A stretch of DNA of 64,000 bases from Lampropedia puyangensis. Lineage in GTDB: Bacteria; Pseudomonadota; Gammaproteobacteria; Burkholderiales; Burkholderiaceae_C. Positions 5,814 to 63,705 of this stretch are shown piece after piece. The stretch spans positions 1-64,000 of the forward strand of contig NZ_STFG01000016.1 in the NCBI RefSeq assembly GCF_004833285.1, given 5' to 3'. Positions within the stretch are counted from its first letter, which is position 1; every line of letters begins with the position of its first letter. Position numbers and translations under genes: made by a program. A model generated the notes under the pieces. The model was not told where the DNA came from. It made no database searches and saw only the letters and a list, made by a program, of their open reading frames with translations.

Positions 5814-6212
5814 TTATGTTGCTGAAGGCTCAGCCGGGGTGGTGACTCTGCGAATCACATCCACCAGTCGAACCGGATCAAAAGGTTTGACCAACCAACC
5901 GGTGGCGCCTGCGGCCCGTCCAGCTTGCTTCATCTCGTCGCTGGACTCTGTGGTCAAAATCAAAATGGGTGTTTGGCTGTAGCTGGGCAAGTTGCGTAAT
6001 TGGCGCGTCAGGCCTAAACCGTCCAGGCGGGGCATGTTCTGATCGGCCAATACCAGTGCAATGCTACTGTGCTGCTGTGCTTTTTCCAAGGCATCCTCAC
6101 CATCCACAGCCTCAATGACATGAAAGCCAGCTTCTTGCAGCGTGAAGGCCACCATTTTTCGCATGGACGGTGAATCATCTACGGCCAATATCTGTATCGG
6201 CTCGACACTCAT
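5814..6212 (-). CDS. cheY: Response regulator CheY
   Basis: A stand-alone receiver domain of 132 residues, the diffusible chemotaxis output that acts on the flagellar switch when phosphorylated. Visible motifs are the acidic pair in AVDDSPSMRKM, the phospho-acceptor Asp in LVLADQNMPRLDG, the Thr in LTTESSD and the Lys in WLVKPFDP. The ATG at 6212 overlaps the stop of the preceding cheZ-like gene (ATGA). The upstream in-frame Met would need a long overlap and is rejected. Confidence 0.93.
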   Translation of the reverse strand: MSVEPIQILAVDDSPSMRKMVAFTLQEAGFHVIEAVDGEDALEKAQQHSSIALVLADQNMPRLDGLGLTRQLRNLPSYSQTPILILTTESSDEMKQAGRAAGATGWLVKPFDPVRLVDVIRRVTTPAEPSAT

Positions 6213-6676
6213 GGGGTTTCTCCTTGAATTCGGGAATGGGTGGGCCAATCGAACAAATCAATACTGCCTGCATCCATGCTGGCTTGTGTGACTGGCCCAT
6301 GGGCAGGTGGCAATACGCTGGCTTCGTGCGTCTGTAAACCATGTGGCTGCGGTTGCTCCATTAAATCAGTACACGCTTGCAGCCGCGATTGGCAATGGCT
6401 AAGCATTTGCGATGCAATGTCTTGGAACTGCATATTCAGCACCGCTTGCGAGAGCAATTGTTTGGCCTCTTGAATATGCCCATCTGCACAGCCTTGGTCT
6501 GTGGCTGCTGCGTGGTTGAGGGCGCTGATTGTTCCTTCAAACGCCGCAATCAAGCCCTCGCAGTGGTGGTTGAGCATCACATCGAGTTGGTGCAGGTCTT
6601 GATGGGTTGCTTGCAGTGCATCCTGAATCGCTTTCAGGGCAGGCGAGCTGGGCACATGGGCTTGGGTGTAGGGCAC
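6209..6676 (-). CDS. CheZ-like CheY-P phosphatase
   Basis: A 155-residue, mostly helical protein, first in the chemotaxis operon and translationally coupled to cheY by ATGA. The segment LNMQFQDIASQMLSHCQSRL resembles the catalytic helix of CheZ (QDFQDLTGQ), where Gln and Asp attack phospho-CheY. It is shorter than enteric CheZ (about 214 residues), and the C-terminal CheY-binding helix is not obvious, although the tail SIDLFDWPT is acidic and aromatic. It starts with GTG. The role as a phosphatase is inferred from the helix motif and position; it could be a divergent chemotaxis helper. Confidence 0.6.
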   Translation of the reverse strand: MPYTQAHVPSSPALKAIQDALQATHQDLHQLDVMLNHHCEGLIAAFEGTISALNHAAATDQGCADGHIQEAKQLLSQAVLNMQFQDIASQMLSHCQSRLQACTDLMEQPQPHGLQTHEASVLPPAHGPVTQASMDAGSIDLFDWPTHSRIQGETP

Positions 6677-6917
6677 AAAAGATTCCGCTCAATCGAGAAG
6701 ATGCAGGCGTGATCGGTGTCAGCGTACGTTGCAAGCATCATAAGGGCAACGGTAACGGAATGATAACAATCAATGGGCTTTGTGCGTACCCTGCTGATAC
6801 AGGGCACTCTGCAATGCTCACCTTTTGCTAGGTGGTCATGCGATGGATTTTGCCCTTTGCTGGGTGCATTGAGTAATGCAGCGCCGGATCAAGCAGGGGC
6901 GCATTTAATTTTTTGGT

Positions 6918-58847: not shown

Positions 58848-59831
58848 TTAATGCTCGAACGTGATCTTTTGTTCAGCAGCTACTTTTTTCATTTTCTCTA
58901 ATTCTGCTTTGATTTCTTGTGTGAATATCTCGGGCGAACTGTTGGCTGGAACAGCGCCACTTGACGCCAAGCGCTTGATGACATCCTCGTCAGCCAGAAC
59001 TGCGGCAAATGCTTTGTCAAGGCGTTGGACGACTTCCTTAGGTGTGTTCATTGGTGCAACCACTCCATACCATGCGGGATCGTTGACTTCCGGCAAGCCC
59101 AGTTCTGCAAAAGTGGGAACGTCAGGTAAGTACGCTAAGCGTTCAGGTGAAGCTACAGCCAGAGCACGGATGTGTCCTGATTTGATATGGCCGATAGAGG
59201 AGGGCAAGTTGTCAAACATGACAGGCACTTGTCCACTAGCGACATCATTCAGAGCGGGGCCAGAACCGCGATAGGGGATGTGCAGTAACGATACATTTGC
59301 CGCTGCTTTAAACAACTCGCCCATCATATGCATGCCACCACAATGCCCTGAGCTTGCATAGCTATATTGATTAGGGGATGCTTTGACTACGTCTAGAAAT
59401 TCAGAATAGTTTTTGGCAGGAAAATCTCGGTTGATCGTTAGAACATTCGCTGTTCGTACCAAGTTCGTGATTGGGGTGAAGTCGGTGAGAGGGTTGTAGC
59501 TAAGTTTGGGATTGCATGCAGCGCTGACAGCGTGGGTGCTAACCGTAGCCATAGCAATGGTGTAGCCATCCGGACGCGCCCGGACTAACTGTTGTGTTCC
59601 GATAATGCCTCCCGCCCCTGCTTTGTTTTCAACTGCTACTGGCTGACCTAGTTCTTGGCTTAAACCATTGGCGATGATGCGCGCAACCACATCAGTAGTA
59701 CCACCGGGTGGGAATGGGATGATCCACGTGATTGCACGGTCAGGGTAAGTCTGAGCCTTTGATGCAATAGGCATGAAAAAGCATAGTGCCAATATAAGGC
59801 TGTGGATTGAGATGTGATTAACGGGTTTCAT
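58848..59831 (-). CDS. Tripartite tricarboxylate transporter (Bug family) periplasmic binding protein
   Basis: A 327-residue exported binding protein: signal peptide (LILALCFFMPIASKA), then YPDRAITWIIPFPPGGTTDV, the family motif, and HIPYRGSGPALNDVASGQVP and YLPDVPTFAELGLPEV. It has an AGGAGAG site and lies 11 bases after the racemase-like gene, so both form one transcript. The ligand is probably the substrate of that enzyme. Confidence 0.92.
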   Translation of the reverse strand: MKPVNHISIHSLILALCFFMPIASKAQTYPDRAITWIIPFPPGGTTDVVARIIANGLSQELGQPVAVENKAGAGGIIGTQQLVRARPDGYTIAMATVSTHAVSAACNPKLSYNPLTDFTPITNLVRTANVLTINRDFPAKNYSEFLDVVKASPNQYSYASSGHCGGMHMMGELFKAAANVSLLHIPYRGSGPALNDVASGQVPVMFDNLPSSIGHIKSGHIRALAVASPERLAYLPDVPTFAELGLPEVNDPAWYGVVAPMNTPKEVVQRLDKAFAAVLADEDVIKRLASSGAVPANSSPEIFTQEIKAELEKMKKVAAEQKITFEH

Positions 59832-59842
59832 GCGAAGCTCTC

Positions 59843-60652
59843 CTAGTCGATAGTGATGAGGTTTGGCTGTAAATCCACTCCTAATAGATGCAGCATTCTT
59901 GATAAATCATCCAATGGAGAGGCCTGACTGGCTGTTGCTAAGCATTTCGTGACACCACAGCCCTGACTGGTAAAGGGACCTAGCTGTGGGAGCAATTCCA
60001 GAGCGGGATCAAGGAACTGCACGCTTGGAGCTGCACGTTTGAAGTATTCAAGAAGCCATGGCAAGTGAGTAGACGAAAGGGTGCACACATCAATATGAGG
60101 TTTTTCTTCGAGTAGTCGAGCCATGAACTCGCTCACTTTGTTTTGTGTCTCTTCTTTTCTCCATAAGAAGCTACCGTCTTCAACCAAGGAAACTAAAGAC
60201 GATGCATTTCTTAGGGTGACAGGGGCTCCAGCAGCTTGGGTGTTTACATAGGAAAGGATTTCGCGGCTTTGCACCAACGATTGCACTCCCAATACTGCAA
60301 TCTGACCGCTACAGCTGCGCTGCAAAGCTTGCGCTACCGGGGGGTAAACACCAAATACAGGAACGCTTTGTTGTGATGAAATTTCGTCCAATACCATCAC
60401 AGAGGGCGCATTGGAGGCGAGAACGACAACCTGTGCACCATGGTTTACAAGTGCGTTGATCGCTTTGTTTACTGCCAATGCGAGCGAGGGTTTTGTTTTA
60501 CTCCCATAGGGAAAGCTGGCGCGATCTGCCAAATACAAGATGTCTTGTTGTGGAAAATGCTGGCGAATGACTTGCACTATTCCATAGCTTCCAATACCAG
60601 CGTCAAATACGCCAATGGGGGCTTGAAGAGAGTGTTGTTGGGTTGATTGCAT
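59843..60652 (-). CDS. Glutamate-racemase homologue lacking both catalytic cysteines
   Basis: A 269-residue Asp/Glu racemase-fold protein closest in pattern to MurI: FDAGIGSYG (MurI DSGVGG), YLADRASFPYGSK (PYG) and, where MurI has ACNT and GCTHYP, LASNAPS (Ser80) and LSSTHLPW (Ser194, His196). Both cysteines that carry out racemisation are serine, so normal 1,1-proton transfer is unlikely. It may be a different enzyme or a binding protein. The ATG at 60652 is chosen over an upstream TTG. It is divergent from a MocR regulator and coupled to a Bug gene. Confidence 0.85.
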   Translation of the reverse strand: MQSTQQHSLQAPIGVFDAGIGSYGIVQVIRQHFPQQDILYLADRASFPYGSKTKPSLALAVNKAINALVNHGAQVVVLASNAPSVMVLDEISSQQSVPVFGVYPPVAQALQRSCSGQIAVLGVQSLVQSREILSYVNTQAAGAPVTLRNASSLVSLVEDGSFLWRKEETQNKVSEFMARLLEEKPHIDVCTLSSTHLPWLLEYFKRAAPSVQFLDPALELLPQLGPFTSQGCGVTKCLATASQASPLDDLSRMLHLLGVDLQPNLITID

Positions 60653-60698: not shown

Positions 60699-60715
60699 CC
60701 TTGAATCGTCCAAGG
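60699..60715. promoter_or_regulatory. Inverted repeat in the MocR/racemase divergent region
   Basis: CCTTG-AATCGTC-CAAGG lies between the two divergent start codons with GGTCC and GGGCC flanks, a plausible MocR operator. Short arms make this tentative. Confidence 0.35.
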
Positions 60716-60786
60716 GCCAGTTGTGGCTTGTTGCGTTGGGCCACTTGCTTTTTGGGGCCATCTAAGCTTCTATATGTTTTGCCTGC

Positions 60787-62259
60787 ATGAGTGCAATGTC
60801 TACGGAAAAAATATCACGTAAAAATAGAGGGATGTTTGACTTCCCTATGCTGCCAACTCTTTCTGGGGAGACTAAGCAGGAGTGGGCCTACCGGCAAGTG
60901 GCTCATGCAATTGCTGCGCGTTTGTTGCCTGCAGGGCACTCTGTACCTTCGACGCGCGTCTTGGCTGCGCGTTGGGGTGTCTCTCGAGGTGTTTTGGAAT
61001 TAGCTTTTGAGAGGCTGATACATGAGGGCTACCTGAAGGCCGAAGTAGGGAGGGGGACGTGGGTGAATGAGGTGCTCCCAGAGCAGTTTTTGTATGCTAC
61101 GGCGGATACGTTGATGGCCCCACACTTGCCGTTAGTGGTTGAGCCAATTTCCACAAAGGTGCAGGCGGGGCAGCCATTTGTTGCCCGAGTGCCTGATACA
61201 ACCACCTTTGATCTGAAAGCTTGGCGAGAGAGCCTGATTCGTTCCGCAAAGACTTTGCAAAATAGTGATTTAAGCAATCAAGATCCGCGTGGCCTGCTTT
61301 CTCTACGTGAGGAAATTTGCAAGCATCTAGCACTATCGCGAGCAGTATTCTGTGTGCCAGATCAGGTGCTCATCGTCGGGGGCATCCGCCATGCCATTGA
61401 CTTATGCGCGCAAGTGGTGGCCGACAGTGGAGCTGCCGTGGCGATCGAAGAGCCTGGTTATCGCAGTGCTGCGGAGTTGTTTGCCGCACGGGGAAATACA
61501 GTGTTGCCGGTGGTTGTGGATGAGAACGGTATTTGTGTGAGTGACCTGCATCATTTGAGTGCTCGTGCCGTATATGTGACGCCCGCACATCAAGCACCGA
61601 CAGGTGTCATGCTTTCTCCTGAACGCCGTATTGAACTATTGCACTGGGCAAATACGCGTGGCGCAACGGTCATTGAGGACGATTACGACAGTGATTTCAG
61701 CTACGATGCAGCGCCATTGCCCGCACTTAAAAGCCAAGATCAAGCCGGCAGTGTTATTTTTTGTGGCAGCTTTAACAAGTCGCTGTTTCCTGCATTGCGG
61801 GTCGGCTATATCGTTGCCAATTCAACTCGATTAAACGCATTAATTCGTGCCCATGCTGCTATGGGGCGCACTGCCTCTGTGCTTGACCAATTGACGCTTG
61901 CAGATTTTATGCGCACGAATGCTTTTGCAAGCCATTTGAAAAAAGTGCGTTTGTCCTATCAAAAAAAGCGAGATTTGATTCTTCATGAATTGTGTATGGC
62001 AGGGGTACCTAAAGAATCGTTTCGTGGACTACATGCAGGGTTTCATTTCGTACTGCGACTACCGCATGGTGTGTCGGAAGATAGGCTGATTGCCTGTGCA
62101 GCTGAGCGTGGTTTAGTGTTGCAGGGGGTGAGTTCTTTCTATTATGCGAATCAACCACCTCTTACGCCTGCGATCGTCATTGGTTATGCAGCACTGACTG
62201 AAGCGCAGACACGTTGGAATTCAAGGCAGCTTGCAAGCGTACTTAAGCAGTTTTTGTGA
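60787..62259 (+). CDS. MocR/PdxR-type regulator (GntR winged helix fused to aminotransferase fold)
   Basis: A 490-residue fusion. The winged-helix domain (about 30-95) has AYRQVAHAIAARLLPAGHSV, STRVLAARWGVSRGVLELAF and RLIHEGYL; the fold-type I aminotransferase domain has the PLP Lys331 in GSFNKSLFPALRVGY and Asp/Tyr of VIEDDYDSDFSYD. Such regulators sense PLP or amino acids through PLP. Divergent from the racemase-like gene and Bug gene, it likely controls them in response to an amino-acid-type ligand. Confidence 0.9.
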   Translation: MSAMSTEKISRKNRGMFDFPMLPTLSGETKQEWAYRQVAHAIAARLLPAGHSVPSTRVLAARWGVSRGVLELAFERLIHEGYLKAEVGRGTWVNEVLPEQFLYATADTLMAPHLPLVVEPISTKVQAGQPFVARVPDTTTFDLKAWRESLIRSAKTLQNSDLSNQDPRGLLSLREEICKHLALSRAVFCVPDQVLIVGGIRHAIDLCAQVVADSGAAVAIEEPGYRSAAELFAARGNTVLPVVVDENGICVSDLHHLSARAVYVTPAHQAPTGVMLSPERRIELLHWANTRGATVIEDDYDSDFSYDAAPLPALKSQDQAGSVIFCGSFNKSLFPALRVGYIVANSTRLNALIRAHAAMGRTASVLDQLTLADFMRTNAFASHLKKVRLSYQKKRDLILHELCMAGVPKESFRGLHAGFHFVLRLPHGVSEDRLIACAAERGLVLQGVSSFYYANQPPLTPAIVIGYAALTEAQTRWNSRQLASVLKQFL

Positions 62260-62784: not shown

Positions 62785-63705
62785 ATGACTATTTACTCTG
62801 TGTTGAGCAGCCCTTTGCATGCTCTTAATGACGGGCAAGACCTGTTGAAATACCCTCGCACGCCGCATCTTGAAGGCTCACGCCTGCAGCTTGGCGATAG
62901 TGATGCTGACCAAACGCCTTGGACTGCACTGGTTGGGCACTTTGTGGTGGTGGAGGAGAAGCTTGATGGGGCCAATTGTGCCGTGCGCTTTAGTGCCGCA
63001 GGTGAACTGCAACTGCAATCGCGAGGCCACTGGCTGGATGTTGCTAGCAATGGCGGGCGTGAGCGCCAGTTCAACGGTTTCAAACAATGGGCTAGGGCGC
63101 ATGAAAAGGCACTGCTGAATGTGCTGGAAGATCGCTTTGTGATGTATGGCGAATGGCTGTATGCCAAACATTCGGTTTTCTACGATGCGCTGCCGCACTG
63201 GTTTTGCGAATTTGATGTGTTTGACCTGCAGCGCCAATGCTTTTTAGATACGCATGCTCGCCATGCTTTGCTGCAAGCATTGCCGGTGGTTTCTGTGCCT
63301 GTGCTGTTTGCTGGTGTTGCCCCCAATTGATTCAAAATGGTGAAAGGCTTGGTCGCGCCTTCATTGGCGCGCAGCCCGCAGTGGCCGCTTGCATTTGAAG
63401 CTGCGGTTGCCCGTGAAGCACTTGACTTGGCGCTGTGTTGGCAGCAAACAGACAAGGACGATGCGAGCGAAGGGCTGTACTTGAAAGTAGAGGCGCAAGG
63501 TCAAGTCGTGGCAAGGTACAAATGGGTGCGTCCTAGCTTTGTGCAGACGATTTTGGATTCCGGATCACACCATAGTGTGCGTCCTATTGTGCCCAATGGT
63601 TTGCGTGCCGGTGTAGACCTGTTTGCCTCTTGCGTCGATAAACATTGGCCACTACCTGCGTTGATGCATGTTCCAAGCAGCAGCGGTATATGCGACGCAG
63701 AATAA
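62785..63705 (+). pseudogene. ATP-dependent RNA ligase interrupted by in-frame TGA
   Basis: A nucleotidyltransferase of 306 codons, with TGA at codon 182. The first part has motif I with the adenylated Lys59 (EEKLDGANCAVRF), RGHWLD and GEWLYAKHS (motif III), and WFCEFDVFD. After the stop, in the same frame, come motif IV (EGLYLKVEAQG) and motif V (ARYKWVRPSF). The break separates the lysine motif from IV and V, so a truncated product would be inactive. An ATG at 63337 could restart the C-terminal half. It is either a recent nonsense mutation, a sequence error or a read-through; the next gene is an HD-domain partner. Confidence 0.85.

Follow-up and report, generated by a model that had tools for sequence, protein, structure and literature searches.

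Within the 64,000-nucleotide stretch of Lampropedia puyangensis DNA analysed here (hereafter the window), a gene related to glutamate racemase (MurI) occupies positions 59843-60652 of the minus strand. Its frame, which the first-pass annotation had called intact without naming a strand, runs from an ATG at 60652 to a TAG stop included in these coordinates and encodes 269 aa with no internal stop; the plus strand of the same interval contains 14 stops. The predicted protein matches Pfam Asp_Glu_race (PF01177; E=4.3e-12, 46.7 bits) above the gathering score of 31, and the NCBIfam glutamate racemase model TIGR00067 at 103.2 bits, under its curated cut-off of 146.65. Structure prediction, proposed earlier as a check, yielded an AlphaFold2 model (mean pLDDT 95.9, pTM 0.91; 36 input sequences) retaining the full-length MurI fold, which superposes on 2GZM with Z 30.5 and rmsd 2.4 over 254 aligned residues at 23% identity. 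The 31 top structural matches of the model are glutamate racemases, followed by aspartate racemases with Z of at most 19. Alignment to solved glutamate racemases, with codons checked, places serine at both catalytic Cys positions. The MurI motif ACNT reads ASNA (codons 79-82, positions 60407-60418, minus strand), with the codon of Ser80, at the first catalytic position, at 60413-60415, and GCTH reads SSTH (codons 193-196, positions 60065-60076, minus strand), with that of Ser194, at the second, at 60071-60073. Thr195 and His196 are retained within the latter motif, as are the PYG segment (residues 48-50) and Asp17 (codon 60602-60604, minus strand), which lies in FDAG where MurI has FDSG. Both motif changes, and the retention of Asp17, PYG and His196, are thus as first read. 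A second homologue in the same genome (L002) has ACNT and GCTH intact, is 26% identical to the window protein, and is likely the peptidoglycan enzyme of the host.

The two neighbours reported previously were also recovered. A Bug/TctC binding protein, identified by Pfam and structure search, is encoded at 58848-59831 on the minus strand and starts 11 nt downstream of the Ser/Ser gene, a spacing and orientation that make co-transcription likely. The nearest solved structure to this Bug protein is 2DVZ (345 bits vs 216 for the next), described as BugE with glutamate (PMC5812351). The neighbour therefore hints at a glutamate-like ligand, although a nearest structure alone cannot give the specificity of a Bug protein. 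Divergent from the Ser/Ser gene, a MocR/PdxR-type regulator comprising GntR and aminotransferase domains lies at 60787-62259 on the plus strand. A search for regulator sites in the 134-bp intergenic region between these two genes returned one two-copy repeat only, an imperfect direct repeat at 60714-60747 (GGGCCAGTTG / GGGCCACTTG, 24 nt apart), which is possibly a regulator site and possibly a product of chance; promoter-like sites were not in excess (2 vs 2.4 in shuffles). An open reading frame with an RNA_ligase domain lies beyond the regulator (62785-63330, plus strand; Pfam E=2.3e-32), and a single stop codon separates it from an in-frame open reading frame that extends to 63705 on the same strand, has no Pfam match of its own and may continue it. 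A further frame with a weak, sub-cut-off HD-domain match overlaps the end of the 62785-63705 region and leaves the window.

Among 112 distinct homologues whose catalytic positions were read, 76 were Ser/Ser, 36 were Cys/Cys and none was mixed, a distribution which argues for more than chance. Asp17, Asp43 (codon 60524-60526, minus strand), Glu158 (codon 60179-60181, minus strand), Thr195 and His196 are invariant in 35/35 Ser/Ser and 18/18 Cys/Cys rows, and the positions identical across all 76 Ser/Ser rows comprise F16, D17, G19, G21, S22, Y40, D43, P48, Y49, G50, S80, E158, L192, S194, T195 and H196. The matching MurI residues Asp10, Asp36, Glu152 and His186 presumably sit at or assist the thiols, and Glu158 is proposed here as the partner of His196. 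Changes specific to the Ser/Ser group relative to MurI are Gly22 to Ser, Ala83 to Pro (34/35) and Tyr197 to Leu or Ile. The possibility that other cysteines have taken over at the catalytic sites, for which an alignment check had been suggested, was ruled out by examination of all Cys columns over the 76 Ser/Ser rows, which revealed no replacement Cys at either site; the commonest such column corresponds to window position 169 (56/76), where the window protein has Thr, and five of the 76 rows are entirely Cys-free from the FD motif onward. Archaeal and bacterial members differ at positions 18, 82 and 123, which we take to be substrate contacts in MurI. Archaeal rows keep Ser18, Thr82 and mostly Thr123, while these residues have been lost from the bacterial rows (Ala18 and Ala82 in 8/8; Val in seven and Ala in one at position 123). 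This suggests that the transferred bacterial line may have shifted substrate, and leaves a glutamate-like substrate unsure.

Phylogenetic reconstruction separated the Ser/Ser from the Cys/Cys sequences with support of 100/99 (60 rows), and the Ser/Ser sequences still formed one group (100/100) when both catalytic columns were dropped from a 53-row alignment of 35 Ser/Ser and 18 Cys/Cys sequences, from which L039, on a long branch, and near copies had been left out. On sequence and tree together, the window gene is a member of a distinct MurI-fold group and not a one-off decay. In both trees the bacterial members form a single group (100/98 and 100/99) which, with the root placed on the Cys/Cys side, nests among archaeal members, with weak support for its exact sister. 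Most simply read, both replacements predate the archaeal radiation and were followed by transfer to bacteria; the archaea-to-bacteria direction is likely, though it depends on this sister relationship and on a sample limited to Pseudomonadota and one archaeal phylum.

Within the sampled genomes the group is rare in bacteria. Eight bacterial members were identified, the window gene and seven others (L003, L004, L032, L043, L044, L152 and L153). In the family of the host, 3/299 genomes reach the Ser/Ser level; another 49 match at E<=1e-20, and all 27 of those read are Cys/Cys. At E<=1e-45 the gene was found in 2/10 genomes of the host's genus, 2/399 of its order, 3/398 of its phylum and 1/43 of the genus of an Achromobacter record, each bacterial count including its centre genome. 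A search of a plasmid collection returned 76 matching records, among them Phyllobacterium (43%) and Fusobacterium vincentii (37%), the genus Fusobacterium being represented by that one record. Among viral contigs, 37 stretches matched a pattern and none coded for a relative. A scan of the whole contig collection, which used the window protein as its only query and so reaches close relatives only, recovered a Nitrosopumilus record (L033) at 33% identity.

The gene is common in Nitrosopumilaceae within the genomes sampled, occurring in 97/121 at E<=1e-15. Both sites are Ser in 91 of these 97 genes, including that of genome G739 (L101), and none of the 97 shows Cys; in the remaining six, one site is missing, gapped or at the alignment end, in one case with Ala at that end. 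A search for a canonical glutamate racemase placed none of 61 Nitrosopumilaceae genomes over the TIGR00067 cut-off, compared with 8/14 control genomes; 49 of the 61 match the model at E<=1e-6, at one place each and all under the cut-off. Across a sample of the archaeal phylum, 47/300 genomes match. Six distant archaeal members (L139-L144) all keep Ser80 and Ser194, three of them with Ile81 and Gly193 and one with Cys193, and a further distant match (L145) is Cys/Cys. One of the six, the L139 protein (positions 5997-6785 of its own locus, plus strand), exceeds the 146.65 cut-off of TIGR00067 with 166.5 bits, and automatic annotation could therefore label a Ser/Ser protein as glutamate racemase. 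The bacterial member L153 gave no Pfam match at E<=0.001. Some archaeal copies, those of G747, G774, G801, G1056 and G1100, carry in-frame stops or split matches, representing either lineage losses or assembly errors.

Genomic neighbourhoods of the relatives give no common pathway. The first-pass annotation had expected Ser/Ser genes to cluster with MocR and Bug genes, an expectation that did not hold: of the eight bacterial members the window gene alone directly adjoins such genes, and at one further locus (L045) a Bug-like open reading frame, recognised by eye, lies about 5.6 kb off. In Nitrosopumilaceae a Snf7-like gene, which we take to be possibly of CdvB type, is the divergent neighbour in 39/39 loci with a BLAST-located target (40 loci, L081-L120), and is likewise divergent in L142 and L143. 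As a functional partner it was set aside, since it is missing beside L139 and L141 and non-adjacent in L140, the loci bearing it come from related genomes, and the matches are weak and under the gathering score (L140, E=8.5e-4; L142, E=2.7e-4). Genes resembling precorrin methyltransferases (named by eye) are convergent in most but not all Nitrosopumilaceae loci and were read as synteny. A hydantoinase/oxoprolinase-family gene lies immediately downstream in L139 and L141 but does not co-occur with the Ser/Ser gene, 14 of 42 genomes having both, 18 the Ser/Ser gene only, three the hydantoinase gene only and seven neither. In G230 and G263 the Ser/Ser gene is inserted between aceF and lpd, which was read as use of a permissive site and not as a partnership with pyruvate dehydrogenase (PDH), given that the other nine of 11 genomes searched do not have it there and that the gap in G015 (L156) is occupied by an unrelated reading frame some 250 aa long. 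This gap of the PDH operon appears to accept cargo genes. Finally, an acetyl-CoA synthetase gene adjoins L153 and a PALP-type gene adjoins L043, each a single case, and GntR, amidohydrolase and MFS genes lie near L032.

Having considered these features together, we favour, with a probability of roughly one half, an enzyme with Ser at its active site, working either as a one-base catalyst or as a Ser racemase, that would act on a small, glutamate-like acid. Both thiols being absent, the textbook two-thiol mechanism cannot apply, and the invariance of His, Glu and Asp, with Ser fixed at both sites, argues for chemistry rather than decay. Ser80 and Ser194 stay where Asn81 or Ser193 changes (L141-L144). 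In the proposed mechanism, Asp17 and the Glu158-His196 pair may polarise Ser80 and Ser194 or, alternatively, might themselves serve as acid and base. The outcome could be one-sided chemistry, as in a lyase, dehydratase or tautomerase, or else Ser-based racemisation or epimerisation. The kept MurI fold, the BugE-like gene 11 nt downstream and the precedent for Ser catalysis discussed below also favour this reading. Supply of D-glutamate for peptidoglycan is an unlikely role, since the host has a Cys/Cys homologue of its own and archaea, to our knowledge, make no peptidoglycan.

Strong constraint on a binding protein could likewise keep these residues invariant, and a non-catalytic glutamate-binding sensor or regulator with a retained ligand pocket, while unlikely, is the alternative to which we give most weight. 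The loss of both bases would fit such a role, as would the divergent MocR gene and BugE-like binding protein in the window and the Snf7-like gene divergent from every BLAST-located Nitrosopumilaceae target. However, mere binding does not need the invariant His196, Glu158 and Asp17, the Ser pair shows no drift to Ala or Gly, and no Snf7-like gene directly adjoins the target in L139-L141. The invariance of Ser194, His196 and Glu158 could also be taken for the triad of a serine hydrolase or acyl-transfer enzyme, and the hydantoinase-type gene directly downstream in L139 and L141 might be cited in its favour; that gene is not distributed in step with the Ser/Ser gene, however, and we know of no hydrolase with the MurI fold, which together make this explanation distinctly improbable. 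Least credible of all is a decaying, functionless MurI copy. Sporadic presence in bacteria and the interrupted archaeal frames noted above are what such decay might produce, but frames are otherwise intact, the motif set is invariant across phyla and the Ser/Ser state is uniform.

Ordinary glutamate racemase activity despite the Ser pair, as printed for ammonia-oxidising archaea, is doubtful, and the published superfamily record on Ser replacement cuts both ways. A 2025 study describes glutamate racemase as ubiquitous in these archaea, names the Nitrosopumilus maritimus gene as such with the necessary catalytic sites, and infers that D-glutamate may be used as a carbon or ammonia source (PMC12363236); the passages of it consulted here contain no assay of the archaeal protein and no statement on its cysteines. 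The fold and additional pocket residues (Ser18, Thr82 and mostly Thr123) are kept in archaea, but neither thiol is present in any Ser/Ser member read. Within the superfamily, RacX, with Ala79 at the first site, is reported to work in both directions; its C193S variant is described as markedly reduced, yet showing a raised kcat alongside weaker affinity (PMC12838360), so a member with neither Cys may retain some activity. Conversely, C197S abolished the racemase activity of EcL-DER, and PH1733, whose first site is Ala, reportedly does not act on Asp or Glu (PMC12838360), while elimination from 3-chloroglutamate by Cys-to-Ser glutamate racemases was set by which Cys remained (PMC8142540). The earlier premise that a double Cys-to-Ser change is not expected in a proton-shuttling racemase was nevertheless too strong, given that the proline racemase superfamily includes enzymes with catalytic Ser: a Ser/Cys 4HypE is an active epimerase, a Ser/Thr t3HypD is a dehydratase, and one or both Cys are absent from some clusters, the passages of that report consulted here containing no Ser/Ser pair (PMC4113996). 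Of the original proposal of an unrecognised enzyme class, what stands is an intact, conserved gene in a group of its own with both Cys gone; its clustering with MocR and Bug genes and its Cys-to-Ser premise do not. Working from the sequence alone, the first-pass annotation had no means of recognising the Ser/Ser form as the standard one in Nitrosopumilaceae.

Taken together, these findings can be drawn, tentatively, into a broader picture in which the Ser/Ser proteins would constitute a second line within the glutamate-racemase fold, free of the catalytic cysteines, near-core in Nitrosopumilaceae and spread to a few bacteria, that may carry out a PLP-independent reaction of a dicarboxylic acid through paired serines assisted by Asp17 and Glu158-His196. 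Were this so, the published D-glutamate metabolism of Nitrosopumilaceae would need revision. Ammonia-oxidising archaea are abundant marine microbes. The archaeal sequences do not support the catalytic-site reading of PMC12363236, and with no sampled Nitrosopumilaceae copy showing Cys at either site the D-glutamate use proposed there is less certain. More generally, racemase models can mislabel the Ser/Ser group, as the L139 score illustrates, and the group offers a clean test of Ser replacing Cys on both sides of the fold, with bacterial and archaeal versions available for comparison. A search of open-licence articles turned up no description of the Ser/Ser state.

Compared with known systems, the window protein is most like MurI/RacE (TIGR00067; 2GZM, 1ZUW, 1B73), with which it shares the fold, the FD-G, PYG and T-H motifs, and Asp17, Asp43, Glu158 and His196. 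It differs from these enzymes in having Ser for both catalytic Cys, and like the 49 matching genomes among the 61 Nitrosopumilaceae it falls under the equivalog cut-off, whereas the archaeal L139 protein lies above it. In fold, EcL-DER (5ELL, Z 14.8) is a more distant match to the model than MurI is. Arylmalonate decarboxylase, maleate isomerase and hydantoin racemase belong to the same superfamily and are cofactor-free, like the window protein, which is nonetheless closer to MurI in sequence and fold than to any of them (hydantoin racemase 2EQ5, Z 13.9). Arylmalonate decarboxylase, as we understand it, is characterised by one catalytic Cys, located in the C-terminal half of the protein, whereas the window protein has Ser194. 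EcL-DER and RacX, also of this superfamily, have the first Cys replaced (Thr83 and Ala79, respectively) and the second kept (PMC12838360), in contrast to the Ser at both sites seen here. The Ser/Cys 4HypE and Ser/Thr t3HypD enzymes are from a different superfamily, that of proline racemase, and the likeness is one of analogy only, namely a catalytic Ser replacing Cys in PLP-independent chemistry (PMC4113996).
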